DNA of 64,000 bases from assembly GCF_009827655.1 (NCBI RefSeq), contig NZ_WTYV01000002.1, positions 62,657-126,656 on the forward strand. Reading direction: 5' to 3'. The position numbers and the translations under genes are program-made. Shown here piece by piece: positions 36,417 through 55,876 of the stretch; within the stretch, counting starts at the first letter, position 1; each line of letters begins with the position of its first letter. The notes under the pieces were generated by a model, which had not been told where the DNA came from, did not search any database, and was given only the letters and a program-made list of their open reading frames with translations. Source of the stretch: Alteraurantiacibacter buctensis. Lineage in GTDB: Bacteria > Pseudomonadota > Alphaproteobacteria > Sphingomonadales > Sphingomonadaceae.

Positions 36417-36926
36417 TCAGGGCGCGACGGCGGCGATGCCTTCGATCTCCACGTACATCTTCTCCCGGCCCAGCGCGGCGATCTGGATGGTCGACCGGGT
36501 GGGGCGGTTGGGCTGTTCGGGCGTGCCGAAATAGGTGGCGAACACTTCGTTCATGGCGGCCGAATCCATCCGTCCGCCGGTTTCGGGCGTGCCGACAAGG
36601 AACACGGTCAGCTTGACCAGGTCGCCCAGGCCCAGGCCCTGAGCCTCCAGGGCCGCCTTGATGCGCTCAAGCACCGAGATCGTCTGGGTGCGCGTGTCGC
36701 CAAAGTCTTCCGGATTGGCGGGATCGAGCGGCGCGGGCGTGGTGCCGGAAACGAACACCAGGCGGCTGCCTTCGGGCACCAGTGCCATGCTGGCGATGCG
36801 CGCGGTGGGCGAACCGTAGACGCGCTCGATCGCGGCTTCGGGGACATCTTGTGCGGCGGCAGGGGCGGCAACGGCGAAACCCGCCAGCGCGAGGGCGAAG
36901 GCGGGAAGGTACTTGGTGGCATTCAT
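36417..36926 (-). CDS. secreted RidA-family protein (first copy)
   Basis: A 169-residue RidA (YjgF/YER057c/UK114) protein preceded by a signal peptide (1-26, ending AAAQ). The mature part keeps the family strand VFVSGTT, the QTISVLERIKAALEAQG helix and the active-site Arg, R144 (TRSTIQIAAL). Classical RidA proteins are cytoplasmic and hydrolyse reactive enamines/imines. Here export matches the neighbouring Tat-exported amine oxidase, whose imine product would be released in the periplasm. It heads the amine oxidase-cytochrome c-TonB receptor operon. Confidence 0.88.
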   Translation of the reverse strand: MNATKYLPAFALALAGFAVAAPAAAQDVPEAAIERVYGSPTARIASMALVPEGSRLVFVSGTTPAPLDPANPEDFGDTRTQTISVLERIKAALEAQGLGLGDLVKLTVFLVGTPETGGRMDSAAMNEVFATYFGTPEQPNRPTRSTIQIAALGREKMYVEIEGIAAVAP

Positions 36927-37025: not shown

Positions 37026-39653
37026 CTAGAAGTTCAGGGTGAGGCGGGCGTAATAATACCCGCCGTTGGTGCCGTAGGGCCCGAAGGTATAGGGCTGATT
37101 GATGACACCGGTATTGTTGATGTAGGGCGACCGGTTGTTGGTGGGCCAGGTCGCCGGGTTGTAATCGGCCACCAGGTCCGGAATTTCCGGCTTCTTGTTC
37201 AGCAGGTTGTTGGCACCCACCGCGATCTCCATCCAGTCGGTGAAGTCGTAGGCCAGCTCCAGGTCGAAGATCGGCGTGGCGCCAACCGTGGCCCGGTAAT
37301 ACTCGCCCACGCCGGCATAGTTCAGCACCGGTCGCGGCGTGGTGGAGAAGCCGTTCGGGCGCACTAGCTGGGTGGTCTTGCCATAGTAGTTCATGCGGGC
37401 ATTGGCGCTGAAGGCCCCGCTCTCGAAGAGTGCGCCCAGGTTGATCTTGTAGTCCGGGCTGGCGTTCTCGATCGTGTCTTCGGCGGTCTGCACGAACAGG
37501 GTGCCCAGAGCCGAGGAGTCGGTCACCCTGGTAATGTTGTAGTTCGCCCCCAGGCTCAGGTCGAGCGAGCCGAACGGCAGGTCCACCGGATAGCGGGCGG
37601 CAAATTCGAGGCCCCACGTTTCGGTGTCGATACCGTTGGTGAAGGTCTGGATGCCCAGCTGGCCGCTGGCCACCACCGTGGGGTCAAGCACCTTGCCGCT
37701 GGCGGCAATGGCGTTGAGCACCAGCTGGTAGGGGGTCAGCCCGTTGATCAGCGGGGTCAGCCTCGGCACGGCAGGGGTCGGCACCGGCGATGCGTCCTGC
37801 CCGATGATGGTGCCCGAAGAGACGATGCGATCGTTGATCTTCAGGTAATAGCCATCCAGCGTCATGGTCAGCAGCGGGGCGGGGCGGATGACCGTGCCCA
37901 GCGAGATGTTGAAGGATTCTTCCGGCCCCAAGGCTCCGAACCCGGCGCTGGCGGCACCGGCCGAGCTGGGCGCGAGCTGCAGCACGGCGCTGGTCGGGCC
38001 CACGTTGGTGGCCGAATAGCCCGATTCCGCCAGCGTGGGGGCGCGGAAGCCCGTGCTGACCGTGCCGCGCAGGGCGAAGGCATCGGAGAAATCGTACCGG
38101 GTGGTCAGCTTGCCGATCAGCGTGTCGCCAAAGTCGCTGTAGTCCTCGTAGCGGCCGGCAACGTCTACCGTCCAGCCGTCGACCGGATAGAGGATCACGT
38201 TGGCATAGGCGGCCTTGGCGTTGCGGTCGATCTTGCTCGCGTCGGTGGGCGAATAGCCGGGGAACGACTGGCCGCCCTCGATGTAGAGTGATCCGGCATC
38301 GCCCTGGAACACCTCGTAGCTTTCGTCGCGGAACTCACCACCGAAGGCGATGGTCATCGGTTCCGCCATGCCGACTTCCAGCTCCTTGCTGATGTCGACC
38401 GTGCTGACGAACTGATTGAACTGGAAGCCGCCGTCATAGAAGTCGGTCGGCGAGAAGCCGGTTGCGACATAGAGCGAGGCGTTGACCGAGCCGGTGGTGT
38501 AAACCTTCGCGCGGTCTTCCGCGTAGGTGGCCGACACGTCCCAGGTCCAGCCGCTGTCGGTTTCGCCGCGCAGGCCGCCGGTGAACGAGAATTCGTTCTG
38601 GAACACCTCGATGTGCGGCACCAGGCCGGTGGCGGCGGTGTTGCCGAAGCAGTTGGTCGGATCGCTGGTCTGCGCGGTGGCGGTCAGCGGGTTGCGGCAC
38701 ACGCGGTTGGGCACGCGATAGCCCTGCAGCGCGTCACCGGTGCGGCGCGAGACGTTGCCGAACGAGTACAGTTCGAACGCGTCGAAGTCGTACCCGAAGT
38801 TGTAGATGGCAACGTTCAGGTTGGATGCCGGCTGGCCACCGTTGATGTTGGCCGTTCCGCCGTTGTCAGCCAGCGCCTGGTAAAGCGGACGGAAGGCGAC
38901 GGATACGCCGGAGTTGATGGTGCCGTTTACGTTCACCACCGAAATCTGGCCGTCGCCGATCGTGGTGTAGCCATTCTCGCGGTGGAACAGGCTGACGTCC
39001 AGAAAACCGGCGTCGCCCACCTCCATCCCGAAGTTGCCGCTGACGCTGTAGCTGGCGCCCTCGTTGTCGTAATACTGGCCCGCGTTGAAGCGCACCGAAG
39101 CACCATCGGTATCGCTCTTCAGGATGATGTTAATCACGCCGGCGATGGCGTCGGAACCGTACACGGCGGCCGCGCCGTCCTGCAGGATCTCGATGCGCTC
39201 CACCATGTCCGGCGGGATCAGGTCGATGCTGGGTGCGGCCGAACCGCCGAAAGCGCCGTTGATCACCTGCAGGATCGAGTTGCCGTGGCGGCGCTTGCCG
39301 TTGACCATCACCAGCGTGTGGTTGGGGCTGACGCCACGCAGGCGGGCCGACAGCGAGAAGCTGGCCATGTCGGTGCCCTGGGTCTGGGCCTGGAAGCTGG
39401 GGACCAACTGGGTCAGTGCCTGGTTCAGGTTGGGTTGGCCCACGCGGGTCAGTGCGTCATCCGACAGCAACTGGATGGGGGCGGCGCTATCGGCAGCGGC
39501 CTGGCCCACGGCGCGGGTGCCGGTGACGATGATGAAGTCGCCTTCGATGGCCTCTTCCGGCGCGGCCTCCGGAGCGTCCTGCGCCATTGCCGTGGTGGAA
39601 AGTGCGGTGGAAGCGAGGAAGATGAAAGCGGTCGTCCTGGTAATGCGCGACAT
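37026..39653 (-). CDS. TonB-dependent receptor, large barrel
   Basis: An 875-residue receptor: signal peptide (1-24, ending AMAQ), TonB-box-like DFIIVTGTR, plug domain with VNGKRRH, VERIEILQDGAAAVYGSDAIAGVINI (about 145-185), and a barrel ending in LTLNF. The IEILQDGASAVYGSDA-type plug is common in Xanthomonadales and Sphingomonadales receptors for carbohydrates, peptides and other organics. It is divergent from the second RidA gene with the shared box between them. ATG 39653 gives the signal peptide; the longer frame has none. Confidence 0.92.
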   Translation of the reverse strand: MSRITRTTAFIFLASTALSTTAMAQDAPEAAPEEAIEGDFIIVTGTRAVGQAAADSAAPIQLLSDDALTRVGQPNLNQALTQLVPSFQAQTQGTDMASFSLSARLRGVSPNHTLVMVNGKRRHGNSILQVINGAFGGSAAPSIDLIPPDMVERIEILQDGAAAVYGSDAIAGVINIILKSDTDGASVRFNAGQYYDNEGASYSVSGNFGMEVGDAGFLDVSLFHRENGYTTIGDGQISVVNVNGTINSGVSVAFRPLYQALADNGGTANINGGQPASNLNVAIYNFGYDFDAFELYSFGNVSRRTGDALQGYRVPNRVCRNPLTATAQTSDPTNCFGNTAATGLVPHIEVFQNEFSFTGGLRGETDSGWTWDVSATYAEDRAKVYTTGSVNASLYVATGFSPTDFYDGGFQFNQFVSTVDISKELEVGMAEPMTIAFGGEFRDESYEVFQGDAGSLYIEGGQSFPGYSPTDASKIDRNAKAAYANVILYPVDGWTVDVAGRYEDYSDFGDTLIGKLTTRYDFSDAFALRGTVSTGFRAPTLAESGYSATNVGPTSAVLQLAPSSAGAASAGFGALGPEESFNISLGTVIRPAPLLTMTLDGYYLKINDRIVSSGTIIGQDASPVPTPAVPRLTPLINGLTPYQLVLNAIAASGKVLDPTVVASGQLGIQTFTNGIDTETWGLEFAARYPVDLPFGSLDLSLGANYNITRVTDSSALGTLFVQTAEDTIENASPDYKINLGALFESGAFSANARMNYYGKTTQLVRPNGFSTTPRPVLNYAGVGEYYRATVGATPIFDLELAYDFTDWMEIAVGANNLLNKKPEIPDLVADYNPATWPTNNRSPYINNTGVINQPYTFGPYGTNGGYYYARLTLNF

Positions 39654-39778
39654 TAGCGTGGCCCCTGTTGTTATTCCGGTGCTCTCCCTGCTTGTGTCGC
39701 CGCACCGGCGCTTGCCGGGACGGTCACGGACTCGTTGATCCGATGCCTTTAATCGAACGCAGATGGCGGGCGAATCCC

Positions 39779-39796
39779 ATACGCCGATGTGCGTAG
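39779..39796. promoter_or_regulatory. shared box between TonB receptor and RidA genes
   Basis: ATACGCC-GATG-TGCGTAG matches 14 of 18 positions of the palindrome at 30157-30174 read on the minus strand. It lies 67 bp upstream of the RidA ATG (39863) and 126 bp upstream of the receptor ATG (39653), in a 209-bp divergent gap with no other feature seen. Confidence 0.55.
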
Positions 39797-39862
39797 ATCG
39801 CTGCGGCGGGTGTTTCGGTAGGGTGCAGACACAGGACAATTGCCGAAGGTGCCACGATAAAA

Positions 39863-40387
39863 ATGCCCACCAAGAGCCAACTGATCGCTGCCCCGCTGCT
39901 GGCGTTTGCCACCGTGGCGGCGGCCACGCCTGCCGCTGCGACAGGCGAGGTGATCCGCATCCAGCGCAACCCCCAGGCGATCATCCTGGAAGCCGCGCGG
40001 GTCAATGCCGGGGCGGATACGATTTACGTCTCGGGCCAGCTCCCGTCGCCGCTGGATCCCACCATGCCGATGAGTGCGGTGACGTCGATCGAGCAGATGG
40101 GGGATACCCGCCAGCAGACCATCAGCACCCTGGCCAAGATCAAGGACATCCTGGAAACCCAGGGCTTCACCATGGCCGACGTGGTCAAGTTGACGCTGAT
40201 GGTGGCGGCGGACCCGCGCACCGGCGCAATGGACTTTGCAGGGGCCAATGCCGGCTATCGCGAGTTCTTCGGTACCGCTGAAAATCCCACCACGGTGGCC
40301 CGCTCGACCTTCCAGGTCGCGGCCCTGGTGGGACCGCATTACCTGATCGAAATCGAGGCGATTGCAGCCCGGGCGCCTACGGAATGA
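39863..40387 (+). CDS. secreted RidA-family protein (second copy)
   Basis: A 174-residue RidA-family protein with a signal peptide (1-27, ending AAAT). It keeps IYVSGQLP, the QQTISTLAKIKDILETQG helix and the active-site Arg R147 (VARSTFQVAAL). It is a paralogue of the protein at 36417-36926, with the same unusual secreted location. It is transcribed away from the TonB receptor under the shared box and followed by a long intergenic region. Likely role: hydrolysis of imine/enamine products in the periplasm, inferred from the family and locus. Confidence 0.87.
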   Translation: MPTKSQLIAAPLLAFATVAAATPAAATGEVIRIQRNPQAIILEAARVNAGADTIYVSGQLPSPLDPTMPMSAVTSIEQMGDTRQQTISTLAKIKDILETQGFTMADVVKLTLMVAADPRTGAMDFAGANAGYREFFGTAENPTTVARSTFQVAALVGPHYLIEIEAIAARAPTE

Positions 40388-41382: not shown

Positions 41383-42342
41383 TCAGGCCTCGGTCATGCG
41401 GATGGCGATGGCCGCTGCGGCAGAGCGGGTTTCCACGCCCAGCTTGGTATAGACGTGCTCCAGGTGCTTCTGCACCGTGCGCGGGCTGATCTCCAACACC
41501 TCGCTGATATCCAGGCTGGACTTGCCGTAGCTGACCCAGAGCAGCACCTGCGCCTCCCGCGCGGTCAGGCCCAGGCGACCGGCCAGCCGCTCCACGTCCT
41601 GGCGGGGGTTCATCTCGTTGATGCGGATCAGCACCTCGTTCTGGCGGTAGCGGCCCACCAGCACCAGTTCCAATGTGCCCCCTTGCGTGGGGTTGGCAGG
41701 CGTTGCCGCTACGGTGGCGCTGGCCCCGGCGCTGCCCCGTGCGATCAGCCGGGTGACCACGGGCAGCAAGGCGGTCGGCGTGCCGTTCGCGGGGGTCCAG
41801 CCGTCCTGGCAGCGCGCAAGTGCCGCCTCGGCCCCGGGAGTGCACCACAGCAGGTTACCGGCCGCATCGGTCGCCAGCATCAGCCGGCCCGTGGCATCCA
41901 GGCTGGCCGCGCTGGCCTGCGCCGCGCGCCCCTGCGCCATGTGGACCTGGACCCTGGCGAGCAGTTCGTCGAGGTTGACCGGCTTCTTTACATAGTCGGT
42001 CGCCCCGCACTCGAAGGCCTGCACTACATGCTCGCTCTCGGTCATGCCGGTCAGGAACACGATCGGCAGCGCGGCGGTGCGCGGATCGGCCTTGATCCTG
42101 CGGCAGGTCTCGAACCCGTCCATCTCCGGCATGATCCCGTCCACGATGATTAGGTCGGGCAGGATCCGGTCGAGCAGGGCCAGCGCTGCCTTGCCGGACG
42201 TAGCCACCAGCACGGTAATGCCCACGGCTTCCAGCTTGGCAGTGATCATGCCCAGCGAACCGGGCTCGTCATCGATTACCAGAACCGTGTCTCCCTGACC
42301 TGGCAAAGTTCCGGGAAGACTGGCGGGCGGACGTTCACTCAT
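41383..42342 (-). CDS. response regulator with LuxR-type DNA-binding domain
   Basis: A 319-residue regulator. Receiver domain at about 19-135 with acidic pocket DD (24-25), phosphoacceptor D68 (IVDGIMPEMDG) and K near TDYVKKP. A linker of about 115 residues, perhaps PAS-like, follows, then a LuxR/FixJ helix-turn-helix at about 255-315 (LTAREAQVLLWVSYGKSSLDISEVLEIS). Its ATG overlaps the kinase stop (ATGA), so they form a two-component pair. It is the closest candidate for binding the shared GGCGTAT boxes, though this is unproven. Confidence 0.9.
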   Translation of the reverse strand: MSERPPASLPGTLPGQGDTVLVIDDEPGSLGMITAKLEAVGITVLVATSGKAALALLDRILPDLIIVDGIMPEMDGFETCRRIKADPRTAALPIVFLTGMTESEHVVQAFECGATDYVKKPVNLDELLARVQVHMAQGRAAQASAASLDATGRLMLATDAAGNLLWCTPGAEAALARCQDGWTPANGTPTALLPVVTRLIARGSAGASATVAATPANPTQGGTLELVLVGRYRQNEVLIRINEMNPRQDVERLAGRLGLTAREAQVLLWVSYGKSSLDISEVLEISPRTVQKHLEHVYTKLGVETRSAAAAIAIRMTEA

Positions 42343-44018
42343 GCTTCCTCCAGCAGACGTAACAGGCCGGCGAGGTCGAACTCGTCCAGCGCGGCATAAA
42401 GGGCACTGACCAGGCGGCCGTGATCCGGGGCGGCCTGGGCCAGCATGGCAATCTCGGCCTCGATCCCGCGGACGTGGCCGATATGGATGCGCTCGCGAAG
42501 CCGCTCGACGTGCTCGAGCGCGCGCTTGGGCAGGCGTTTGCCGCGTGCGGAGCCGGCCGGCTCCTCGGGTGTTTCGCCGGTGCTTTCCCACTGCCAGGAA
42601 AGCCCCAGCAGCGCGCCGATTCCGTCCGCCAGATCGTCCAGGCGATAGGGTTTGACGAAGAAATGGTCATGGCTGGCCTTGTCGGTCTCGGGCCGGTGGA
42701 ACTCTTGTGCATTCGCCGATGCCATGGCGATGCGAACCTGGCTGCCGCAGAGCTCCCGGATGCGGGCGCCGGTTTCCCACCCGGTCATGCCGGGCATGGA
42801 TATGTCCAGCATCACCAGGTCGAACGCGCATTCAGCGCACAGTGCCAGGGCTTCGGCCCCGCTGGCCGCCGTGGTCACGTGGAAATCGCAAGCGGTGAGA
42901 TAATGCTGCAGCAGGTCGCGCTGCTCCGCTTCGTCATCCACTACCAGAATGCGCCGCCGGTCGCCCTCATAACCGATGATCTTGCGCTGCGTGGCCTGTG
43001 GATCAAGCGCGCGGATCGGTTCGGGCAGCATCAGGGTGACGGTGAAGCAGCTCCCCTGGCCAGGCGTGCTGGCCAGCTTCAGGTCACCACCAAGGATACG
43101 CACGATCGCCTTGGTGATCGGCAGGCCCAGCCCCACGCCCTGGGCGCTGCCATCGGCGCGTTCATAGGGATCGAACACGCGCTGCTGGTCTTCCTCGGCG
43201 ATGCCGGGGCCGGTGTCGATGATGTCGAAGGTGGCGATCTGACCGCGATAGGCAACACGCAGCGTCACGCTGCCGCTGGCGGTGAACTTCACGGCATTGC
43301 CGATCAGGTTCAGCAGTGCCTGGCGCAGCCGGCCAGGATCGGTGCGCACAACGGCGGGAATGCGGCCCACGGTTTGCAGGTGGAATGCCAGGCCCTTGGC
43401 TTCGGCCCCCGGACGCACCATCCAGGTCAGCTGGTCGAGAAAGTCAGGCAAGTCGATCGCTTCGTGGCGCAGGCGCAGCACGCCACTATCGAGTTGGGCA
43501 ATATCGAGCAGCCCTTCCGACAGGGTGGTGATATGCTCGCAACAGCGGCGGATCACGCGGGCCGCCTGCCGCGGGTCGACATCGTTTTGCTGCTCGACCA
43601 GTTGGGCATAGCCATAGATCGCGTTGAGCGGCGAGCGGATCTCGTGGCTGACCGTGGCCAGGTAGCGCTGCTTGACCATGTTGGCCGCTTCGGCCGCGTC
43701 CTTGGCGCGCAAGGCTTCCTGCATGCTGGCGGAAAGCTTCTCCAGCTCATCCACCCGGCGGCGCATCAGGGCAAAGCTGCCCACGCCCGCCACGGTGATT
43801 ACCATCAGCACCACCATGGTCAGCCAGTGGAACGGGCGGCTGCTATCGGCGGAGGTCGCCTCGCCTGCCAGCAGTGCAGCCTCGACGATGGTGGCCAGCA
43901 GGATCAGCCCCAGCGCCAGGTTGGCGGCGGCGTTGTGCCGGGTGGAATTGAAGGTGCGGGTGTTGGGCAGCCCGGCGCTACGGGCATGCGGCGAGGGAGA
44001 GGTGGCGCTGCCAGTCAT
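42339..44018 (-). CDS. hybrid sensor histidine kinase
   Basis: A 559-residue membrane kinase. Two helices (about 33-52 and 63-86) flank a short loop of only some ten residues, so no large periplasmic sensor exists. A coiled linker leads to the HisKA domain with H125 (VSHEIRSPLN), then an HATPase_c domain (about 230-340; NLIGNAVKF, GLGLPITK), then a receiver domain (about 360-475; LVMLDISMPGMTGWE with Asp near 405). The C-terminus is a helical tail. It is coupled to the response regulator. ATG 44018 was chosen; the frame extends to 44096. Confidence 0.9.
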   Translation of the reverse strand: MTGSATSPSPHARSAGLPNTRTFNSTRHNAAANLALGLILLATIVEAALLAGEATSADSSRPFHWLTMVVLMVITVAGVGSFALMRRRVDELEKLSASMQEALRAKDAAEAANMVKQRYLATVSHEIRSPLNAIYGYAQLVEQQNDVDPRQAARVIRRCCEHITTLSEGLLDIAQLDSGVLRLRHEAIDLPDFLDQLTWMVRPGAEAKGLAFHLQTVGRIPAVVRTDPGRLRQALLNLIGNAVKFTASGSVTLRVAYRGQIATFDIIDTGPGIAEEDQQRVFDPYERADGSAQGVGLGLPITKAIVRILGGDLKLASTPGQGSCFTVTLMLPEPIRALDPQATQRKIIGYEGDRRRILVVDDEAEQRDLLQHYLTACDFHVTTAASGAEALALCAECAFDLVMLDISMPGMTGWETGARIRELCGSQVRIAMASANAQEFHRPETDKASHDHFFVKPYRLDDLADGIGALLGLSWQWESTGETPEEPAGSARGKRLPKRALEHVERLRERIHIGHVRGIEAEIAMLAQAAPDHGRLVSALYAALDEFDLAGLLRLLEEA

Positions 44019-44481
44019 CGCCCGAAGGGGGTCCCGTGCCGGAGCGATGGCTGCCCGGCGCGGCCGGCCTGGCGGCGACCGGCGGGGCAGAAGCATCCAT
44101 AAAATATGTCAGGCGGGGGCAACCCCTCGACCATTTTACCCTCGATCAGGCCCACGTTCTTCCCGGACCCTATGTGTTAGCGACCGGGTGCAGGATACCG
44201 CGATATTGGTGCGATGCAAAACGCAGGGAGTGGATGGGGGCCAGGGTGCCGTCCCCGCTCTGCGGGCGCGAATGGAACGTTAACAACCTCTCGTTTGGTT
44301 TACCTAAATACCGGAAAGAAGATGCAAATAGTGGTCGGAAAGGGGGCTAGCTCGCACGATCCATCTGCATGATCCCTGCGGCACGGTGGCAATCTCATCC
44401 ACTCAGGATGTTGCATTGCAGCAACAGCGCTGCAGGAAATTGACGCACTGCACCAGGGACGCGCCGCGATGCGGCTCGCAA
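44019..44481. other. 463-bp intergenic region
   Basis: No gene is supported. It lies upstream of the histidine kinase and downstream of the cytochrome c gene on the same strand, so it should hold the kinase promoter. A small hairpin GCCGC-GAT-GCGGC (44463-44475) lies 7 bp past the cytochrome stop without a T-run. A weak dyad GTTGC-N6-GCAAC is at 44410-44425. No copy of the GGCGTAT box is present. Confidence 0.5.
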
Positions 44482-44916
44482 CTAGAGCGCGGGCCCCGGC
44501 GGATCGAACGTGATTCGTTGCAGGGCAGCCTCATCGGCGGGCAATTCGCGGGCACCCGCGGGCACGCCGTTGGCCTGCAGCAGTAGCGCCACCAGATGTG
44601 CGTTCTGTTCGGGTGCCAGGCTGCCCGGTGCATGCTGCGGCATGGCCCGCGAGACATAGGCGAACAGGTCGGCCACCGGGCGACCCGCCCAGTTGGCCAC
44701 GAAGCGCCCCGTCAGCGGCGGGATCTCGCCGCGCCCTTCCATCCGCGCGCCGTGGCACATGGCGCAGTTGATGGCATAGACCTGCGCCCCGGCTGCCGCC
44801 TGTTCCGCAGTATAGCGTCCCGTGCCGGTTCCGCCCCGGCTCTGCGCCAGCGCGGCCCCGGTGCCCAATGCCACCAGCGCCAGGGCGGCGACCAACTGGC
44901 CCGTCCGCGCGCTCAT
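44482..44916 (-). CDS. periplasmic cytochrome c
   Basis: A 144-residue cytochrome c with signal peptide (1-25, ending ALAQ), heme site CAMCH (C51, C54, H55) and Met in SRAMPQHAPG as the likely sixth ligand. Its sequence differs from the two amine-oxidase cytochromes. It is the last gene of the sulfatase operon and its start overlaps the stop of the flavin oxidoreductase by 4 bases. It is probably the electron acceptor of that enzyme. Confidence 0.88.
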   Translation of the reverse strand: MSARTGQLVAALALVALGTGAALAQSRGGTGTGRYTAEQAAAGAQVYAINCAMCHGARMEGRGEIPPLTGRFVANWAGRPVADLFAYVSRAMPQHAPGSLAPEQNAHLVALLLQANGVPAGARELPADEAALQRITFDPPGPAL

Positions 44917-46211
44917 GCCGCCGCTCCCGCGCTGCGGGCGAAGATGGCGGCCAGCGTTGCCATCGCCTCCTCGATCGGAGCGCGATTGGGCAGTTCCATG
45001 CTGTCGCCCACGCCCAGCATATCACCCAAGTCAGGGTTGTTGTTCATGATCACGATGCCGTCGCCCTTCGACAGGGCCGACACGTTGCGATAGCGCAGCG
45101 AGTAATTGACGCCTGGCTGCGGCACCAGCCAGCCGGTCTGCCCGCGCACTGGGATGACCGTGCGATCGCCCCAGAAGTCGCGCGCGGCATAGCCGGTGGC
45201 GTGGATCACCACGTCCTCGGGCAGGTCCGCCAGTTCGCCGGGGCGATGAAAGACGCGGTTCACGAACTTTCCGCCGCGGCCGAAGAACTCGTCCAGCAGG
45301 ATCGCGGCATAGGCGGGGAAGTTGAAATGCATCTGCGAACTGCGCGTGGCATAGGGCATCCCGAACGGGTTCTCGCCCGGCGGCAGCGGCACGGCCTGCG
45401 GCACGATATCGGCAATGCGGCTATCGAGGTGCGCGAATTCGCTGTTCTGCCGGGGCAGCCCGGCGGTGGCAAAGCTCTCGGTAATTGCAGGATCGGCCGG
45501 CCAGGTACGCCGTTCGATCGGGGCGTCCGACACGGCATAGCTGTCGCCGAACCGCACCGGCTCGCCCGGCAGGCCCAGCATGGTGCGGAACATGCGCCAG
45601 GAATGGCGCGCCATCTGCTCCCACAAGTCGGGAAACTGCGGGCCGGCGGGCTCCACCAGGGCGATGCGCGATCCCGGTGTGTAGGAGCCACTGGCGCGGA
45701 ATGAGCGGGTGCGCGCAATCTGGTCACGGGCATAGATCGTAACGTCAAGGCCATAGCGTTGTGCCACCACAGCCGATGTCAGCCCGATGATGCCGCAGCC
45801 GACCACGGCCACGCTGCGCGGCAGGGAAGCGAGGGCCTTGCCCACCGCCACCTCGGCCGATCCCCAGGAGAGTGACCAGCCGCTGCCCCCGTGGCCATAG
45901 TTGTGTACCACCAGCTTGCCGCCCACGCTCTCTGTGCCCAGGTTCGGCCCGGCGGCGCGCAGCGGGCGCAGGCAGCACTTCATGTCGACAAGCTGGTCGG
46001 GCGAGAGGCGCATCGGCACCAGCGACGGGGTGCCCAGCACCTGCCCGCGCACCAGCCCCGGCACGGCCAGCGCCCCGCCAGCCATAAGTGCCCCGCCTAG
46101 CAGGCGGCGACGGGTGGCGGCTTGTCCAATGAAGGCTGTCTGCTGCACCGGCCCGTCTCCACCAGCGGAATATCGGGAGGCAGCATATGGCGTGTTTGGG
46201 GCGCGGCCCAT
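44913..46211 (-). CDS. Tat-exported D-amino-acid-oxidase-like flavoprotein with permuted order
   Basis: A 432-residue flavoprotein. A Tat leader (ATRRRLLGG, residues 31-40) leads to LRPLRAAGPNLGTE (81-94) and HNYGHGGSGWSLSWGSA (103-119). These are the C-terminal FAD signature of the DAO family, yet here they come before the Rossmann motif VVGCGIIGLTSAVVA (136-150). The rest follows normal DAO order (VIHATGYAARDFWGD, PVRGQTGWLVPQ) and ends without that C-terminal segment. The layout is a circular permutation. It overlaps the cytochrome c gene, so it is likely a dehydrogenase. ATG 46211 is chosen; the frame runs to 46535. Confidence 0.82.
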   Translation of the reverse strand: MGRAPNTPYAASRYSAGGDGPVQQTAFIGQAATRRRLLGGALMAGGALAVPGLVRGQVLGTPSLVPMRLSPDQLVDMKCCLRPLRAAGPNLGTESVGGKLVVHNYGHGGSGWSLSWGSAEVAVGKALASLPRSVAVVGCGIIGLTSAVVAQRYGLDVTIYARDQIARTRSFRASGSYTPGSRIALVEPAGPQFPDLWEQMARHSWRMFRTMLGLPGEPVRFGDSYAVSDAPIERRTWPADPAITESFATAGLPRQNSEFAHLDSRIADIVPQAVPLPPGENPFGMPYATRSSQMHFNFPAYAAILLDEFFGRGGKFVNRVFHRPGELADLPEDVVIHATGYAARDFWGDRTVIPVRGQTGWLVPQPGVNYSLRYRNVSALSKGDGIVIMNNNPDLGDMLGVGDSMELPNRAPIEEAMATLAAIFARSAGAAA

Positions 46212-46237: not shown

Positions 46238-47197
46238 TCAGCCGCGCACCACGCAGCGGAAGCCGATGTGGCTGGTGGACGTGTCGACCGCCTGCGGCTG
46301 GCGCGCGGCGGGGCGATAGCGCTGGCAATAGCTTTCGGCGCACAGGTGGCTGCCGCCCTTCAGCACCCGGCGGCCGATCTTCACCTGCGGGGTGCACGGA
46401 TCGAAGCTGTCGGCCTTCCTGCCGCCGCGCGGGTTGGGAATGGTGCAGCAGGCACCGGGCTTCTTCTTCTCGACGGCCTGCGGCTGGGCATACCAGTCGC
46501 TGGTCCACTCCCACACGTTGCCGATCAGGTCCCACAGGCCATAGTCGTTGGCCGGGTAATGACGCACCGGGCTGGTCCGCTCGAACCCGTCCTCCAGCGT
46601 GTTCTCGTAAGGGAAGGCGCCCTGCCAGAAGTTGGCCAGCATCTGCCCCCCGGGGATCAGGTCATCCCCCCAGGCATAGTCGCGGCCCTCGTGCCCGCCC
46701 TTGGCCGCGAATTCGAACTCGCCCTCGGTTGGCAGGCTCTTGCCGGCCCACCGGGCATAGGCCAGCGCATCGCCATAGGTGACCTGCACAACCGGGTGAT
46801 CGTCCAGCCCCGCGATGCTGCTGTCCGGCCCGGTGGGGTGGCGCCAGTCGGCCCCCAGGCAGAACTCCCACCACTGGCTGAAATCGTTGAGCGGCACGGG
46901 GCGCGGCGTCTTTCTGAACACCAGCGATCCGGGCTGGGCCAGTGCCGGGTCCATGCCGGGATAGTCCTTCGGGTCGGGCGCGATCTCGGCAAAGGTCCTG
47001 TGGCCCGTAGCCTCCACAAAGGCGGCGAACTGGGCGTTGGTCACCGGCGTCTCGTCGATCCAGAACGGGTCCACCTTCACCCGCCGCAGCGGACGCTCCT
47101 CGGGATAGAAGCTCTCCGAACCCATGGTGAAAGTGCCCCCCGGCAGGTGGACCATGCCGGAGGTGTCGGGACCGCTTCTGAGCCGTGTATGCTTCAT
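46238..47197 (-). CDS. formylglycine-generating enzyme (SUMF1-like)
   Basis: A 319-residue FGE-sulfatase family protein covering the whole domain from VHLPGGTFTMGS (about 16) to HIGFRC. The two catalytic Cys are present: C286 and C291 in GGSHLCAESYCQRYR, equivalent to the human SUMF1 pair. It converts the Cys of a sulfatase CxPxR motif to formylglycine with O2. No signal peptide, so it would act in the cytoplasm before export. The substrate is presumably the arylsulfatase of the same operon. It follows the DUF3604 gene by 4 bases. Confidence 0.92.
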   Translation of the reverse strand: MKHTRLRSGPDTSGMVHLPGGTFTMGSESFYPEERPLRRVKVDPFWIDETPVTNAQFAAFVEATGHRTFAEIAPDPKDYPGMDPALAQPGSLVFRKTPRPVPLNDFSQWWEFCLGADWRHPTGPDSSIAGLDDHPVVQVTYGDALAYARWAGKSLPTEGEFEFAAKGGHEGRDYAWGDDLIPGGQMLANFWQGAFPYENTLEDGFERTSPVRHYPANDYGLWDLIGNVWEWTSDWYAQPQAVEKKKPGACCTIPNPRGGRKADSFDPCTPQVKIGRRVLKGGSHLCAESYCQRYRPAARQPQAVDTSTSHIGFRCVVRG

Positions 47198-47201
47198 CAC
47201 A

Positions 47202-49079
47202 TCACGGGCGGTACCAGATCGGCGACGACCATGCACGTTCCTGCAAGGTCAGCGGCAGGGCGGTGCGCGCCGGGTCCATGCCCAGAGCGATGGCATCAAA
47301 CAGCTGGTGGCGCGGCGTGGGGATTTCCAGCACGCGGACATAGTAGAACGCGTTGACGGCCGGATCGAAATCGGGGTCGCGCCACAGGGTCACCAATTCG
47401 CCCGCGCCGATGGTGTTGGTATAGCGGGCCGTGCGCCGGTCCACCGTGTCACCCACCGGGGCCAGCGAGCCATCGCTGCGCAGGCGGCCGGAGCCGCTCC
47501 ACACCACGTTGTAGACTTGTTCGCGCAAGGTCCCGTCGGCCGTGCGCCAGCCCTTGATCACCTGCACCCGGTCAAGATTGGCACCGCCCGCTTCCTTGAC
47601 CGCCTGGATCAGCAGGGCCGGGGCAACAGCACGGGTGGGGCGCTGCAATTCGCCACCCATCGGCACGCCCTTGCGATAGCCGACGCGGGCAAAGTCCGCC
47701 GCCTCGGCATCCCCGGGCACGAAGCCGAAGCCGCCGAATACCCGCAGGGCAATGCGCGGGCCGCTGGTGCCATAGACCTCGCGCCGGCGGAACGCCTCGT
47801 AGATGCTGCGACGGTCGTTACGGTCGGCCCACACGGCGGCAATGCCACCTGCCGAGACGACCCACGAGTTCATCGGCCCCAGCACGGCATCGGCCTTTTC
47901 CTGCGGGTAGATGTCCCCGCCGGACTTGCCGTAGAACTCGTCCTCGCGCTGGGAGGAGAGGCCGGAGTGGCTGTCGGTGCTGCCGATCACGCCAAAGGCG
48001 AAGGGGTTCACGCCGGTGCGCGCCTGCGCGGCCAGGCCGGCCAGCAGCCCTGTGCGGACATAGCTGCCGGCGTGGGGGATGGCCGGCTCGCTGCCGAACA
48101 TCGTCTCGCGGATTTCGAAGTCGGCGAACTCGTCATTGGTGGACAGGCTGGGGTGCGCCTCGCTGGTCCCCTTGTACTGGGTCACCTCCACCACGCGCTC
48201 CCATTCAAGCCGCTCATGGGCATAGGCGGCGTCGAATTCCTCGCCGTCGGTATTGAGCTGGGTCCACATCTGGCCCTGCGACAGGTTGGAGTTGTGCGGG
48301 ATGGCCACGAAGTCGGCCCCCGTGCGGGCCCGCGTCTCGCGCAGGAAACGCCACAGGCCTTCCGGGGCCATCGTGTCATAGTTGCTCAGCGGCAGGAACT
48401 GGCGGGCCACATCGCCATCGGCCGAAGTGAACACCACGCGGTGCTGGTTGATGCCGTTGGGGGTGCTACTCCACTCCCAGCCTATCAGGGCGGTGAACTT
48501 GCCCGGTTCGTTGTAGCGTTCGGCAGCATCGATGTGGCGTTCCCACGATGTGCGCAGGATCTCGGGGTTGTGGAGCGAGGAGATGATGTCGTTCACCGGG
48601 TCATGCGGGCCCAGCTTCATGGTCTGCATATAGGCGGTATCGGGATTGGCGCGGTAGGCTTCGGCCAGTTGCCGCCCGCCGGTGGTGGCCAGGATATCTT
48701 CATCCCCTTCCACCATGCGCGGCAGCACGCCCAGCATCTCGGCATGGTCGGCGACGACGAGGAAATCGAGCGGCTTGTCGATCCGGATCACGTCGCCCGT
48801 GCGGGTGTGTCGCACCGGCATGCCGCGGGCGAAGCGGTATGCGGTATCGATATCGGCGTTGTTGGTGCCGTTCTCGAAAGCGTCTGCACTTTCGCGCGTG
48901 TGCAGGTGGGTATCGCCCCACAACAGCACGCGGTCCCCTGCTTCTGCGGGGTTGGCCGCCAGCCGGTCCACCGCCGGATCGGCGGCCGTGGCATCGGGCG
49001 CGGCAGGCTGCTGGCAGGCGGCAAGGGCCGCCAACAGGCTGGTGGACGCAATCAGGCGAAGGGTCGGGTGGCGCATCAA
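47202..49079 (-). CDS. DUF3604 lipoprotein, PHP-like metallohydrolase (first copy)
   Basis: A 625-residue DUF3604 protein with a lipobox (LAALAAC, C22). PHP-type metal motifs are visible: GDTHLHT (H58, H60), ADHAE (D111, H112, E114), IPHNSN (about 265) and STDSHSG (about 362). They suggest a multi-metal hydrolase acting in the periplasm. The family is uncharacterised to my knowledge. A paralogue lies at 50996-52825; both end in ERAWTSPIWYRP-type sequence. It is between the HupE-like and FGE genes in the sulfatase operon. Confidence 0.87.
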   Translation of the reverse strand: MMRHPTLRLIASTSLLAALAACQQPAAPDATAADPAVDRLAANPAEAGDRVLLWGDTHLHTRESADAFENGTNNADIDTAYRFARGMPVRHTRTGDVIRIDKPLDFLVVADHAEMLGVLPRMVEGDEDILATTGGRQLAEAYRANPDTAYMQTMKLGPHDPVNDIISSLHNPEILRTSWERHIDAAERYNEPGKFTALIGWEWSSTPNGINQHRVVFTSADGDVARQFLPLSNYDTMAPEGLWRFLRETRARTGADFVAIPHNSNLSQGQMWTQLNTDGEEFDAAYAHERLEWERVVEVTQYKGTSEAHPSLSTNDEFADFEIRETMFGSEPAIPHAGSYVRTGLLAGLAAQARTGVNPFAFGVIGSTDSHSGLSSQREDEFYGKSGGDIYPQEKADAVLGPMNSWVVSAGGIAAVWADRNDRRSIYEAFRRREVYGTSGPRIALRVFGGFGFVPGDAEAADFARVGYRKGVPMGGELQRPTRAVAPALLIQAVKEAGGANLDRVQVIKGWRTADGTLREQVYNVVWSGSGRLRSDGSLAPVGDTVDRRTARYTNTIGAGELVTLWRDPDFDPAVNAFYYVRVLEIPTPRHQLFDAIALGMDPARTALPLTLQERAWSSPIWYRP

Positions 49080-49101
49080 TATTCTCCCGGCAGGCGAACC
49101 C

Positions 49102-50112
49102 CTAAAGGGCCCGTTGCAGCATCCAGTAACTTGCGGTTATTCCGATGAAATAGGCAGCGGCGAGACGAGGCAGTGCCGCGAAGCGCTCGTGGTCAAGCAG
49201 CGGCAGCAGGCGGCGCGCAGCCAGCCCCAGCAGGGTGACCAGCACCATCAGCGCGGCCACGAAGACCAGTTGCCCCAGTTCGATCCCCAGGTTGAAGGCC
49301 AGCAGCGCGCTCAGCAAACCTTCCTGCGGCAGGCCCACTTCCTTCAGCACGGCGGCAAAGCCGAAGCCGTGGAGGAGGCCGAACCCGCTGGATACGGCCA
49401 GCGGGTGACGCCAGGTGATCGTGTCTGACCGGCCCCGAGCCAGTTCCACCGCCAGCAGCACGATGCTGAGCGCGATCAGCACCTCCACCGTGCGGATCGG
49501 CACCGCCACGATGTCGAGCGCGGCCACGGCCAGCGTGATCGAATGGCCGATGGTGAAGCCGGTAACGGTCGCCACCACGCGCCGCCAGTGCCCGGCGATC
49601 CACACCAGGCAGGCGACGAACAGCAGGTGGTCGAACCCCAGCCAGATATGTTCCACCCCCAGCACCAGATACTGGGTGAAGGTTCCTTGCGCTTCAGCCG
49701 TGGGGGCAGGGAAGGGAATTTGCGTTACGCCGGGCAAGCGCATGCCGATGGTGGCCGCGCCATCGGGTAGCACGGCGCGGTAGATGGTGGGCAGGTTCGG
49801 GTTGCCCATGGGGTAGGATATGGTGAACCCGCGCCCCGCCAGGGGCTGGCGGCAGGTGAAGCGGGCGGTGCGCTGATGGCCGATCCCGTCGCTCCACCGG
49901 CGCATGCTGCCGTCGAGATTGCAATCGGCGGGCAGCACCAGGTTGGGCACGGCCCCGGGGGCAAAGTTTGGCGGGATGCGCCAAGCCAGGTCCAGCGTGG
50001 TTTCGCTGGTGGCCTTCGCCTCGATATACAGCGGACGGGCCTCGTCAGCCCGGGCCGGCATGGCAAAAGCCAGCATGGGGGTCAGCAGCAACAGGGCTAG
50101 CAGCCACCTCAC
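49102..50112 (-). CDS. HupE/UreJ_2-family membrane protein
   Basis: A 336-residue protein: signal peptide (1-22, ending PARA), a periplasmic beta domain to about 150, then six hydrophobic helices with the HupE/UreJ_2 motifs LGVEHIWLGFDHLLFV, GFTIGHSITL and SSGFGLLHGFGFA. The conserved His and Asp residues suggest metal or cation handling, as proposed for HupE. In this operon it could supply metal to the DUF3604 proteins (inference). Its ATG overlaps the parvulin stop by 4 bases. Confidence 0.85.
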   Translation of the reverse strand: MRWLLALLLLTPMLAFAMPARADEARPLYIEAKATSETTLDLAWRIPPNFAPGAVPNLVLPADCNLDGSMRRWSDGIGHQRTARFTCRQPLAGRGFTISYPMGNPNLPTIYRAVLPDGAATIGMRLPGVTQIPFPAPTAEAQGTFTQYLVLGVEHIWLGFDHLLFVACLVWIAGHWRRVVATVTGFTIGHSITLAVAALDIVAVPIRTVEVLIALSIVLLAVELARGRSDTITWRHPLAVSSGFGLLHGFGFAAVLKEVGLPQEGLLSALLAFNLGIELGQLVFVAALMVLVTLLGLAARRLLPLLDHERFAALPRLAAAYFIGITASYWMLQRAL

Positions 50113-51011
50113 CGTTCCGGCTCGCCCAGTTCGCCCAGATCGCCTGCTGCATCCACCCGGTAGGCGGAAATCGCTTGTCGGATCTGCTCCTCGCCCAGCC
50201 GGTTGCGCTTGGCCTGCAGGGCATCGCGGGCCACAAGGTCGCGGATCTGCTCAAGCCGCACCTCTTCCGCTGCGCGGCGCGAGGCGACGCGCAGCATGTG
50301 ATAGCCCAGCGGTGAGCGGAATGGCCCGGTCCACTGGCCCAGCGGCTGGCGGAAGGCGGCGGCAGACAGTTCCTCGCCCAGTTCGGGCACCAGCGAGGAC
50401 TGCGTCATGGCCGAATAGTTGCGCTGGTAGGGGAAACGGTCGCCCCGCTCCAGCGCGTCCTCCGGCGCGACATTGCCCGATCGCAGCGCCTGTAGTTCGC
50501 GCTGCGCCACTTGCGCGGTGGCGGCTCCGTGCTTCTGTCCGTCGATGAACACGTGCGTGAACGTGGCCGTGGCGGCCTGGGCATAGTCGGCCCGGTGATC
50601 GTGGAAATACTCTTCCACTTCCTGCGCCGAAATGGTCACGCCCGACAGCGCCTGGTCGCGCAGCAGCAGGTCCATCTGCTGCACCAGCCGGCTGCGCACC
50701 AGCGGATCGGCCTCGTCCAGGCTGATCGCGCGTGCCTCGCGATAAAGGGCTTCCTGGCGCACGAAATCGTCATACAGTTCGCGCCTCTGCCCGGGGCTCA
50801 GCGCGTCATAAGCCTCGTCAAACGTCTGCCCGTCATACAGCCGCGCCTTGCCCTGCATGTAGCCGATCAGGTCCGCGCGGCCGACGGCGATCACCTGCGA
50901 TGAAGCATCGGTTTCGCGCGGGAGCAGGGCATAGAGCAGGGTGCCGGCCAGCAGGAAATGGACCAGCGGGTCTTTCAGCCAGCGGGGCAGGGTTCTCACG
51001 GGCGATACCAT
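50109..51011 (-). CDS. membrane-anchored PpiC/SurA-type peptidyl-prolyl isomerase
   Basis: A 300-residue protein with one N-terminal membrane helix (about 14-30, LVHFLLAGTLLYALL), an SurA-like helical region and a rotamase (parvulin) domain at about 145-250 (FTHVFID, ELGEELSAAAF, GPFRSPLGYHMLRV). It probably helps fold exported proteins of the operon. ATG 51011 lies 16 bases inside the preceding DUF3604 gene; the longer frame to 51521 is within that gene. Confidence 0.85.
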   Translation of the reverse strand: MVSPVRTLPRWLKDPLVHFLLAGTLLYALLPRETDASSQVIAVGRADLIGYMQGKARLYDGQTFDEAYDALSPGQRRELYDDFVRQEALYREARAISLDEADPLVRSRLVQQMDLLLRDQALSGVTISAQEVEEYFHDHRADYAQAATATFTHVFIDGQKHGAATAQVAQRELQALRSGNVAPEDALERGDRFPYQRNYSAMTQSSLVPELGEELSAAAFRQPLGQWTGPFRSPLGYHMLRVASRRAAEEVRLEQIRDLVARDALQAKRNRLGEEQIRQAISAYRVDAAGDLGELGEPER

Positions 51012-52825
51012 ATGGGCGAGGTCCAGGCGCGTTCCTGCAACCAGGCGGGCTGGCCTTCCGGGAAGGGCAGGTTGCTGCGCCGGGCCAGGTAGACCGGCCA
51101 GCGCGGCGTGGGGATTTCCAGCACCCTGGCATAGTACAGCGTCGGCTGGGCGGGGTCGAACTCCGGGTCGGTCCACCCGGTGACAAGCTGGGCGCTGCCG
51201 ATGGTGTTGGCATAGCTGGCATTGGCCACGTCCACGGTATTGCCCACCGGGCCGACCTTGCCGGTGCGCGGATCGCGCTGCCGGTTGCCCGACCAGACCA
51301 CGTCGAACACCTTCTCGTGCGCCCCGGCGTGGTCGATCCACACCTTGACCACCTGCACCCGGTCGAGGTTGCCCGAAAGCGGATCCTTGACTGCTTCCAG
51401 CAGGAACTGCGGCGCGGCACGGCCACTGGCGCGGCTGAGCGATCCGCCCATCGGCTGGCCGCGGCGGTAGGCTTCGGCCACCCAGCTGTTCCGCTCGATC
51501 AGGCTGGCGGGCAGGTCCCACCCGGCGAACATCCGCACCTTGATGCGCGGACCGCTGGTGGCGAAGACCTCGCGCCGGCGCAGCGCGGCAAAGATCGCCT
51601 CGCGCGTGTTGCGCTCAGCCCAGACGCCGGTGATCCCGCCCGCCGAAAGCGTGGTCAGCGGGGCGTTGAGGATGGGCGAGATCTGGTTCAGCAGCGCTTC
51701 GGGATCGGCCTGGCTGTCACCCAGGCCCAACCCGCCGGGAAAGTTGTCTTCCTCGGTGGACGAGACACCCGAATGGAAATCGCTGGCGGCGATGATGCCG
51801 AACTGCATCGGGTTGATGCCCAGCTCGCGCTCGATCAGCAGGCCCCGGCCCAGGCCCGTGCGGACATAGCCGCCACCCAGGTCCTCGCCTTCGGGGGCGA
51901 GCAGCTCGAAGCCGGCAAATTCGTCATCGGGGGACAGTTCGGGGCGGGTTTCGCTGCTGCCCTTGTTCTGGCTGATTTCCACCAGTGGTTCATTGGCGTT
52001 GCGCCGCGCGGCCCACTCGCGGGTCATCGGCGCGCCGCCGGTCTGGTCCATCGAGAAGGCCATGCCTTCGGACAGGTTGGAATTGTGCGGGATCAGGATC
52101 GAATCCACCCCCCGCGCGCGCCAGCCTTCGGCATAGGTCCACAGGTCATCCGGCCGCATGGAATCGTTGGTGGAGAACGGCATGTCCGGATAGTCCGGAC
52201 CGGCAAAGATCACGTTGCGGTGCTGGTGCCCGTCGTTTGGCGTAGCCGACCATTCGAACGCGGCAAAAGTGGTGAAGGTGCCGGGGACATAGTTCGCCTC
52301 GGCCGCCTCGATCACGTCGCCCCAGTTGTCGCGAATGCCGGCGCGGTCATAGAACGGCGAATCCGCCCCCCGCGTCAGCGACGGGTTAACGACCCGGCGC
52401 ATGATCGGGAATACCTGCCCGAAATTCTCCACCGCCAGCAGCGCGGGCCATTCGGACCCGGCATAGCGGCCCGCCGGATCGCGCCCCAGCCGCACCATGC
52501 CCAGGTATTCGGCATGGTCGGTCACCGCCAGGAAATCCAGCGGCACGCGGCGCTGCACGGTCTGGCCCATGTAATCGACCGGCATCCCGCGGGCATAGCG
52601 ATAGGCATCGTCCGGCACCGTGTTGGTGCCCGAGGCCGCTGCGTCCAGCGAGTAGCTGGTGTGCAGGTGCAGGTCGCCGAAATAGGCGTTGCGCAGGGGA
52701 TTGGCGGGAATTTCCGCCTGCTGGCGTGGCGACGGCGCGGGCGCTTCGCTTTCCGCCGAACAGGCGGCGAGCCCCAGCGCGACACCGGCCAGCAGGATGC
52801 TCTTCGCGATCGTCCCCCCCGGCAT
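50996..52825 (-). CDS. DUF3604 lipoprotein, PHP-like metallohydrolase (second copy)
   Basis: A 609-residue DUF3604 protein with lipobox LGLAAC (C22). PHP-type motifs: GDLHLHT (H53, H55), TDHAE (D103, H104, E106), IPHNSN and a DFHSG site in place of DSHSG. It is homologous over its length to the protein at 47202-49079. The 4-bp gap from the NTF2-like gene and 16-base overlap with the parvulin gene show an operon. A role in processing a sulfated or phenolic substrate is inferred only from neighbours. Confidence 0.87.
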   Translation of the reverse strand: MPGGTIAKSILLAGVALGLAACSAESEAPAPSPRQQAEIPANPLRNAYFGDLHLHTSYSLDAAASGTNTVPDDAYRYARGMPVDYMGQTVQRRVPLDFLAVTDHAEYLGMVRLGRDPAGRYAGSEWPALLAVENFGQVFPIMRRVVNPSLTRGADSPFYDRAGIRDNWGDVIEAAEANYVPGTFTTFAAFEWSATPNDGHQHRNVIFAGPDYPDMPFSTNDSMRPDDLWTYAEGWRARGVDSILIPHNSNLSEGMAFSMDQTGGAPMTREWAARRNANEPLVEISQNKGSSETRPELSPDDEFAGFELLAPEGEDLGGGYVRTGLGRGLLIERELGINPMQFGIIAASDFHSGVSSTEEDNFPGGLGLGDSQADPEALLNQISPILNAPLTTLSAGGITGVWAERNTREAIFAALRRREVFATSGPRIKVRMFAGWDLPASLIERNSWVAEAYRRGQPMGGSLSRASGRAAPQFLLEAVKDPLSGNLDRVQVVKVWIDHAGAHEKVFDVVWSGNRQRDPRTGKVGPVGNTVDVANASYANTIGSAQLVTGWTDPEFDPAQPTLYYARVLEIPTPRWPVYLARRSNLPFPEGQPAWLQERAWTSPIWYRP

Positions 52826-52829
52826 CGCG

Positions 52830-53450
52830 TTACACCTTGTCGTAGTGGAATGGCGCGATCAGAGGCGCGGGGAAGCACTCGTATTCCATCGTCGGCGGGG
52901 CATCGGGCTGGAGGCCGTCGATCGAGCGCAGCAGCTTCACGCCTCCCTTGTTCCATCCTTCGTAGAAGTCGACGTAGATGTTCATGTAGCCGTGGAGCTG
53001 GGCGATCTTCCATTCGCCATCGACCCGCCTGTAGGCGTTTTCGTAGGTCGCCTCGCCCCAGCGGGCTTCGTTACCCACCGATCCGACCATCATGAAGCTG
53101 CGCCAGCGGCCCTTGGCCGTGCCTGCCGCGCTGTCCACGTGGATCACCGGCTGCAACTGCATGTGGTTATACAGCATGCCTTCGCCATAGGCGGGCAGGT
53201 GGTGAAGGTAGGCCCGCACCCGCTCTCGCCCGATGTAGACGCCGCGCCCGGCCAGCTCCAGCGTGCCGTCCTCGGCAAACAGGTCGGCCGCATTGTCCCA
53301 CAGGCCCTTGTCGACATAGTAGCCATAGGCGGCCTGCAGGTTCTGCACGGCCTGGAAATCGCGCGCCTGGCGCACTTCGGCCTCCAGCGCCGCCTGGCGC
53401 TCCTTCATGGCAGCCAGTTCGGCCTGCAGGGCGGCAAGGGTATCGGTCAT
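52830..53450 (-). CDS. NTF2/SnoaL-like protein with N-terminal coiled coil
   Basis: A 206-residue protein: a heptad-rich helix (about 5-32, LAALQAELAAMKERQAALEAE), then an NTF2-fold domain (LQAAYGYYVDKGLWDNAADLF, FAEDGTLELAG) and a C-terminal extension with VDFYEGWNKGG. No signal peptide. It follows the arylsulfatase by 63 bp and precedes DUF3604 by 4 bp. It may be a cytoplasmic hydratase or isomerase; the family does not allow a reaction to be named. Confidence 0.75.
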   Translation of the reverse strand: MTDTLAALQAELAAMKERQAALEAEVRQARDFQAVQNLQAAYGYYVDKGLWDNAADLFAEDGTLELAGRGVYIGRERVRAYLHHLPAYGEGMLYNHMQLQPVIHVDSAAGTAKGRWRSFMMVGSVGNEARWGEATYENAYRRVDGEWKIAQLHGYMNIYVDFYEGWNKGGVKLLRSIDGLQPDAPPTMEYECFPAPLIAPFHYDKV

Positions 53451-53513
53451 GGTGTTCCTCTCGTAGGCATCGTCCGTGGGGGGCAGACAATAGCTGCCGG
53501 ATGGTCGGCCCTG

Positions 53514-55808: not shown

Positions 55809-55876
55809 GGTTTCCTCTCCCCCGGAAATTTTTGCCCTCTTGGCCCCGGAGGCCATTGCAGAGCAACGCGTCGGGG

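Follow-up and report, generated by a model that had tools for sequence, protein, structure and literature searches.

The closest described relatives of the protein analyzed here are D-amino-acid oxidase (DAAO) and D-aspartate oxidase (pig 1kif, human 2du8 and 6rkf, Rasamsonia 7ct4, and Cryptococcus 9vpf). DadA and DauA belong to the same broad superfamily and use FAD to oxidize D-amino acids without needing O2. For bacterial DAAOs, the main text of PMC9844085 gives three marks, namely an N-terminal fingerprint, GxRPxR, and YGHGGxG, and reports that the active-site Tyr is not strictly conserved, with Met, Phe, Ala, and Cys also found.

The protein, P0001, is encoded in the window, which is the whole 64,000-nucleotide stretch of Alteraurantiacibacter buctensis DNA that was analyzed. 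It shares with DAAO and D-aspartate oxidase the Rossmann GxGxxG, the Arg-Pro motif, YGHGGxG, and the predicted fold. It differs from them in having its two blocks in inverted order with new termini, a twin-arginine leader, Ser in place of the active-site Tyr, and a cytochrome c partner. Altogether, the reading that we prefer, and hold to be probable though well short of certain, is that P0001 is a natural circular permutant within the DAAO family that works as a periplasmic, cytochrome-c-linked dehydrogenase on a D-amino-acid-like substrate. The features of the gene are as follows.

44913..46211, minus strand: permuted DAAO-family open reading frame P0001, 432 amino acids (translation, Pfam PF01266)
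46146..46148, minus strand: GTG at residue 22, the likely true start, with GGAG 8 nt upstream
46038..46121, minus strand: putative twin-arginine (Tat-like) leader, residues 31-58, beginning AATRRRLLGGALMAGG (sequence pattern)
45831..45992, minus strand: moved block, residues 74-127, corresponding to the usual DAAO C-terminal strands and last helix (alignments, model)
within 45831..45992, minus strand: predicted elements of the moved block, E74-85, E93-96, E99-103, and H115-127
45957..45971, minus strand: LRPLR, residues 81-85, with Arg82 aligned to the DAAO Arg-Pro arginine
45885..45905, minus strand: HNYGHGG, residues 103-109, single copy
45783..45800, minus strand: Rossmann GCGIIG, residues 138-143, downstream of the moved block (sequence)
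44919..45821, minus strand: main block, residues 131-431, ending with H410-431 (profile, model, rotated alignment)
45078..45080, minus strand: Ser378, replacing the active-site Tyr (rotated alignment)

P0001 matches the Pfam DAO family well above its cut-off (PF01266, E 3.6e-22, 79.8 bits against 27.9), and the best stretch stops at position 259 of the 353 in the model. A further piece of the gene, upstream of the one that matches DAO positions 2-169, matches positions 302-350, with a score (21.5 bits) that alone is under the cut-off. The sequence-only reading had placed the DAAO C-terminal signature ahead of the Rossmann motif, and this order is confirmed: LRPLR starts at residue 81, H.YGHGG at 103, and GCGIIG at 138, and profile alignments are inverted in the same way. 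GCGIIG fits the GxGxxG dinucleotide-binding fingerprint and YGHGGSG (residues 105-111) fits the DAAO mark YGHGGxG, while CCLRPLR compared with GxRPxR has the RPxR and Arg82 in place and Cys at the Gly position. The ordinary DAAO order, with the fingerprint N-terminal and YGHGGxG C-terminal, is absent from P0001, and because its order is inverted we file it as a permuted variant rather than as an ordinary DAAO member. A second, normally placed copy of the C-terminal motif was also looked for; there is no second H.YGHGG anywhere in the open reading frame, its C-terminus included.

Alignments to solved structures locate the inversion. A phmmer search against the PDB placed P0001 residues 131-151, 268-371, and 14-125 on 7ct4 residues 23-43, 141-251, and 252-371, respectively; the 131-151 piece is weakly supported (-0.5 bits), and a profile shows the same inversion. 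This profile, of 14 relatives, aligned with 7ct4 in two pieces (104-379 on 21-302 and 48-106 on 319-377) and split in the same inverted way on human D-aspartate oxidase 6rkf. The main block of P0001 corresponds to an ordinary DAAO from its N-terminus through the helix preceding the moved block. The C-terminal strands and last helix of DAAO, which carry LRPxR and YGHGGxG, would then have moved to the N-terminus, with a short linker connecting them to the Rossmann strand, and by the profile alignment the new chain ends would follow the preceding helix, between 7ct4 residues 302 and 319.

The AlphaFold2 model of P0001, built with 51 relatives, has a pLDDT of 88.9 and a pTM of 0.84, with block means of 92-98 over residues 61-140. 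In the model, the four elements of the moved block lead into Rossmann strand E133-137, and the last element is the helix noted above. Foldseek ranks 1-33 for this model are all DAAO or D-aspartate oxidase, with TM scores (target) of 0.48-0.65 and rmsd values mostly of 4-7 Å (one of 14.5 Å), from a sequential alignment that by its nature cannot place a moved block. The model of a leaderless member, L160 (pLDDT 82.2, pTM 0.84), likewise had DAAO or D-aspartate oxidase at all of Foldseek ranks 1-33, with TM scores (target) of 0.56-0.68. The three-dimensional position of residues 81-119 is thus predicted from homology together with a confident, compact model, and both suggest that the rotated chain builds the same FAD fold.

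We also compared the permuted proteins with an HMM of 318 positions built from seven ordinary bacterial DAAO-type proteins, from Streptomyces (L172, L173, L175), Tsukamurella (L174), Streptantibioticus (L176), Nocardia (L177), and Vibrio (L179). Fourteen permuted proteins, and each ordinary one against an HMM that left it out, were rotated in steps of 4 residues. In their native order the permuted proteins match the HMM piecewise. When rotated to just before the Rossmann motif, nine of the 14 (L003, L014, L016, L018, L019, L022, L023, L024, and L025) match as one domain, from HMM position 4-7 to 309-317, and the score of L023 rises from 125 to 190 bits. P0001 goes from 40.1 bits to 75.6 bits at its best rotation, with its two ends joined over HMM positions 133-311; this is a partial merger rather than a single full-length domain, and L017, L028, L029, and L030 likewise stay unmerged. 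All seven ordinary controls score best unrotated or at a shift of at most 4 residues. They have the usual block order and align full-length with the permuted proteins after rotation, so that a multiple alignment of both groups is collinear. The rotation behavior that marks a circular permutant is therefore seen for the family and, in part, for P0001, and the circular permutation put forward in the sequence-only reading holds up in the inverted profiles, the rotation, the collinear rotated alignment, and the confident model.

The same order recurs wherever it could be read. In the class of the window, a search of 385 genomes gave matches at E <=1e-10 in 15, all of them in the permuted order. 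A Pseudomonadota sample, some of whose genomes are identical to ones in the class sample, gave matches at 1e-8 in 42 of 398 genomes: 20 are near full-length and permuted without exception, and the other 22 are partial matches only. A scan of a species collection found at least 563 relatives, possibly with ordinary DAAOs among them. The best 80 of these, which were fetched, come from Pseudomonadota (72), Acidobacteriota (7), and one unplaced genome, and 78 of their loci were parsed (L088 and L111 were left out). All 78 have HNYGHGG in single copy, 35-38 residues before GxGxxG. Leaderless permuted members occur in Nonomuraea (Actinomycetota), Rhizobium, and Bradyrhizobium. Permuted order is a property of a whole bacterial family, not of one gene.

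These counts rule out chance or misassembly as the source of the inverted order, with 78/78 parsed loci and 20/20 near-full-length matches in agreement. We give next to no credence to the notion that P0001 is no true permutant, whether as a truncated DAO domain behind an unrelated segment resembling the C-terminal signature or as an assembly artefact; general caution is all that recommends it, against an N-terminal segment whose own profile score against the C-terminal block of 7ct4 is 57 bits, the high model confidence across that segment, the single motif copy, and the identical order in every parsed locus.

A permuted DAAO appears to have gone undescribed in the open-licence papers listed by our searches, and the string "permut" does not occur in the main text of PMC9844085. 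Among the best 17 of 137 PDB sequence matches to the profile, all are DAAO or D-aspartate oxidase, the listed ranges fit the ordinary order, and none is a solved permuted structure. Plasmid records label the permuted genes of Kozakia, Rhizobium, and Bradyrhizobium "FAD-dependent oxidoreductase." A phage origin was considered and rejected, as a phage collection gave no match; a viral fold library gave three at E <=0.001, two of them named FAD or D-arginine-dehydrogenase-like, at 12-13% identity. Within the genus of the window, L003, L004, and L005 form a divergent permuted subgroup whose genes are flanked by cysteine-synthase-like and dienelactone-hydrolase-like genes (names from reading of the open reading frames).

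Turning to the N-terminus, the GTG at 46148 is a likelier start than residue 1 of the 432-residue frame, judging from its upstream GGAG and from being the sole ATG, GTG, or TTG between residue 1 and the RR motif. A start there puts the twin arginine within a leader of normal length. The Tat leader called earlier stands at the level of pattern, with TRRRLL in P0001 and, in 78/78 parsed relatives, an RR pair that precedes HNYGHGG by 35-110 residues. Leaders vary, and the leader region of L025, L029, L030, L160, and L178 is without RR. If the pattern is a guide, the leader would carry P0001 through the Tat route to the periplasm.

The rotated alignment has 62 rows: 49 of type A (the group of the window), 6 of type B, and 7 ordinary. 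Type B is a label for permuted rows that retain the Tyr, not a tree clade (two changes); these relatives share the permutation of P0001, some leaderless (L029, L178, L030, L160) and some with a leader (L023, L024, L157). The Arg-Pro arginine, Arg82 in P0001, is present in all 62 rows, including 49/49 of type A. We take this residue to be Arg283 of pig DAAO and the active-site Tyr column to be that of pig Tyr228. Tyr occupies the latter column in 6/7 ordinary rows (Phe in one), 6/6 type B rows, and 2/49 type A rows, where P0001 has Ser378; in 20 further rows it is found in 0/12 of type A and 8/8 of type B. Type B rows retain both the DAAO Tyr and the GG (6/6, then 8/8 further rows). In type A, an acidic residue (Asp in 25, Glu in 24) stands in 49/49 rows where 6/7 ordinary rows have Gly, one lid-loop column is gapped in 49/49, and the column of P0001 Tyr370 is Tyr in 48/49. 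Cys at residue 80 of P0001 (45972-45974), two before the Arg, is likewise found in 49/49 type A rows, with Gly in 7/7 ordinary ones.

With no Tyr at its usual position and an acidic residue for one Gly of the GG motif, P0001 may have a substrate unlike that of DAAO. One version of this is a permuted DAAO fold, exported and cytochrome-coupled, that acts on something other than a D-amino acid, such as a secondary amine, an N-substituted or opine-like amino acid, or a glycine-type compound. The scarcity of Tyr in type A, the lid-loop gap, the acidic residue for Gly, and the Cys before the Arg all point this way. We nevertheless think it rather unlikely, because the Arg is retained throughout type A, strict conservation of the Tyr is not seen even among DAAOs (PMC9844085), and some loci have neighbor genes that fit D-amino-acid release. 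On the preferred reading of a D-amino-acid-like substrate, Arg82 would hold it while its C-N bond is oxidized to an imine.

The genes on the downstream side of P0001 are listed here in order away from it.

44482..44916, minus strand: cytochrome c gene (PF13442, E 8.2e-11), with a Sec-leader-like N-terminus by inspection
42339..44096, minus strand: sensor histidine kinase with receiver domain (Pfam), found in 9/36 cytochrome-group loci
41383..42591, minus strand: response regulator, named by sequence and cluster, found in 9/36 cytochrome-group loci
39863..40387, plus strand: Rid-family protein (PF01042, E 9.1e-17), found in 9/36 cytochrome-group loci
37026..39839, minus strand: TonB-dependent receptor, named via its cluster (representative L057 against Pfam)
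36417..36926, minus strand: second Rid-family protein (PF01042, E 1.1e-18)

The ATG of the cytochrome c gene overlaps the stop codon of P0001 (ATGA). A cytochrome c homolog lies directly downstream in 35 of 79 loci (the 78 parsed plus Kozakia L028) and also in L088. The other 44 of the 79 are without one, the contig ending early in a few, and L063 and L064 have only a weak cytochrome c match about 6 kb upstream on the opposite strand. In the Kozakia record, genes close by are annotated as cytochrome c, TonB-dependent receptor, and serine hydrolases. Coupling to a cytochrome c, proposed from the sequence before, is borne out at the gene level by the overlap and by conservation of this neighbor across a subclade.

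A tree of the 62 rows, which has no outgroup and only a small, largely actinobacterial set of ordinary rows, splits permuted from ordinary rows with support of 100/95. All type A rows group in a single clade (100/100), and within it 15 rows with the downstream cytochrome c, P0001 included, form another (100/99). The gene is present in 15/15 of these rows (14 relatives and the window's own) and in 0/26 examined of the 34 type A rows outside (one of the 26, L097, has only 296 nt downstream); the remaining 8 come from short loci and were left out. The cytochrome c pairing is specific to this clade. Deep branching order is unsure because of long branches (L025, L179, L023, and L024 among others). 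The tree fits one permutation and one later cytochrome gain.

Within this subclade, electrons would pass from P0001 to the translationally coupled cytochrome c, not to O2, as the operon suggests. P0001 might instead be a periplasmic oxidase that produces H2O2, with the adjoining cytochrome c gene serving another process. That the best 17 of 137 PDB matches are named D-amino-acid or D-aspartate oxidases agrees with this, as do the examined type A relatives outside the subclade, which do without a downstream cytochrome gene. We regard it as improbable, since the ATGA overlap and the gene's presence in every subclade row argue for a shared job. The score of P0001 with the NCBIfam D-amino-acid dehydrogenase model is 27.4 bits against a cut-off of 383, and from the gene context we infer "dehydrogenase" as a putative label.

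The other neighbors are more scattered. Kinase, regulator, and Rid occur together in the same nine loci (L032-L036, L038, L040, L041, and L101), seven of them Sphingomonadales-named and two of them MAGs not so named; as these are mostly related sphingomonads, the loci are not independent. Outside the cytochrome group, L079 too has a Rid gene next to its permuted gene. TonB-dependent receptor matches occur in 18/81 loci, and the cytochrome group accounts for 16 of these (16/36). Neighbors in the cytochrome group further include an Amidohydro_3-type protein immediately after cytochrome c (four loci), a PF00144-type (beta-lactamase-fold) hydrolase (three), and penicillin-amidase-type genes (two), each name resting on one representative against Pfam and otherwise on clustering; a DadA-like enzyme is among the neighbors in three loci. 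Because the best NCBIfam matches were all below cut-offs, the neighbor names are loose. The hydrolase-type neighbors fit D-amino-acid release.

Both Rid proteins of the window (36417-36926 and 39863-40387) have signal-peptide-like N-termini by inspection, a sign that imines may be handled outside the cytoplasm. Deamination of imines is an activity of Rid proteins, and for two subfamilies the substrates include the imine that D-arginine dehydrogenase (DauA) makes (PMC5619798). In sphingomonads, secreted Rid proteins would probably hydrolyze the imine to an oxo acid and ammonia. Near the second Rid gene and the TonB-dependent receptor gene is a flavin amine oxidase gene (34750-36360, minus strand; PF01593) with an RR-containing leader.

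On the other side of P0001, a close-packed minus-strand run at 46238-55856 encodes FGE-type, DUF3604, HupE/UreJ-like, PPIase, DUF3604, and SnoaL-like proteins, with a sulfatase ahead (Pfam); the HupE and PPIase genes are bracketed by the two DUF3604 genes. The proposed link of the permuted gene to sulfatase and FGE genes was not upheld: across 81 related loci at E 1e-10, with 6 kb flanks where contigs allow, the sulfatase, both DUF3604 proteins, HupE, PPIase, and SnoaL are found in 0/81 and FGE in 1/81. Leaderless permuted genes have yet other neighbors. A TPP-dependent enzyme adjoins them in L029 (4473-8699), L178 (1-3390), and L030 (4854-7673), annotated in Rhizobium L029 and Bradyrhizobium L178 and seen by inspection in Nonomuraea L030, and an FAD-binding oxidoreductase gene precedes the permuted gene in L029 and L178. 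Perhaps these belong to a pathway that decarboxylates the oxo acid.

As a tentative history, which we would not bet on but which may prove right, a single ancient permutation split the DAAO family, and the permuted branch rebuilt the site around the Tyr and lid. One subclade would then have exchanged O2 for a dedicated cytochrome c, forming an exported D-amino-acid respiration module of TonB-dependent receptor, hydrolases, permuted dehydrogenase, cytochrome c, secreted Rid, and its own two-component regulator.

DAAO is a textbook flavoenzyme, and the published guide for finding new DAAOs expects the fingerprint at the N-terminus (PMC9844085). Members of a whole branch that runs the other way round can readily end up under the anonymous label "FAD-dependent oxidoreductase," as in the three plasmid records. 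The permutation amounts to an experiment of nature on the tolerance of this two-domain fold for new chain ends. If the preferred reading is true, the cytochrome-linked subclade would offer D-amino-acid enzymes free of H2O2 for biosensors, and it would give bacteria a means of extracytoplasmic respiration on D-amino acids.
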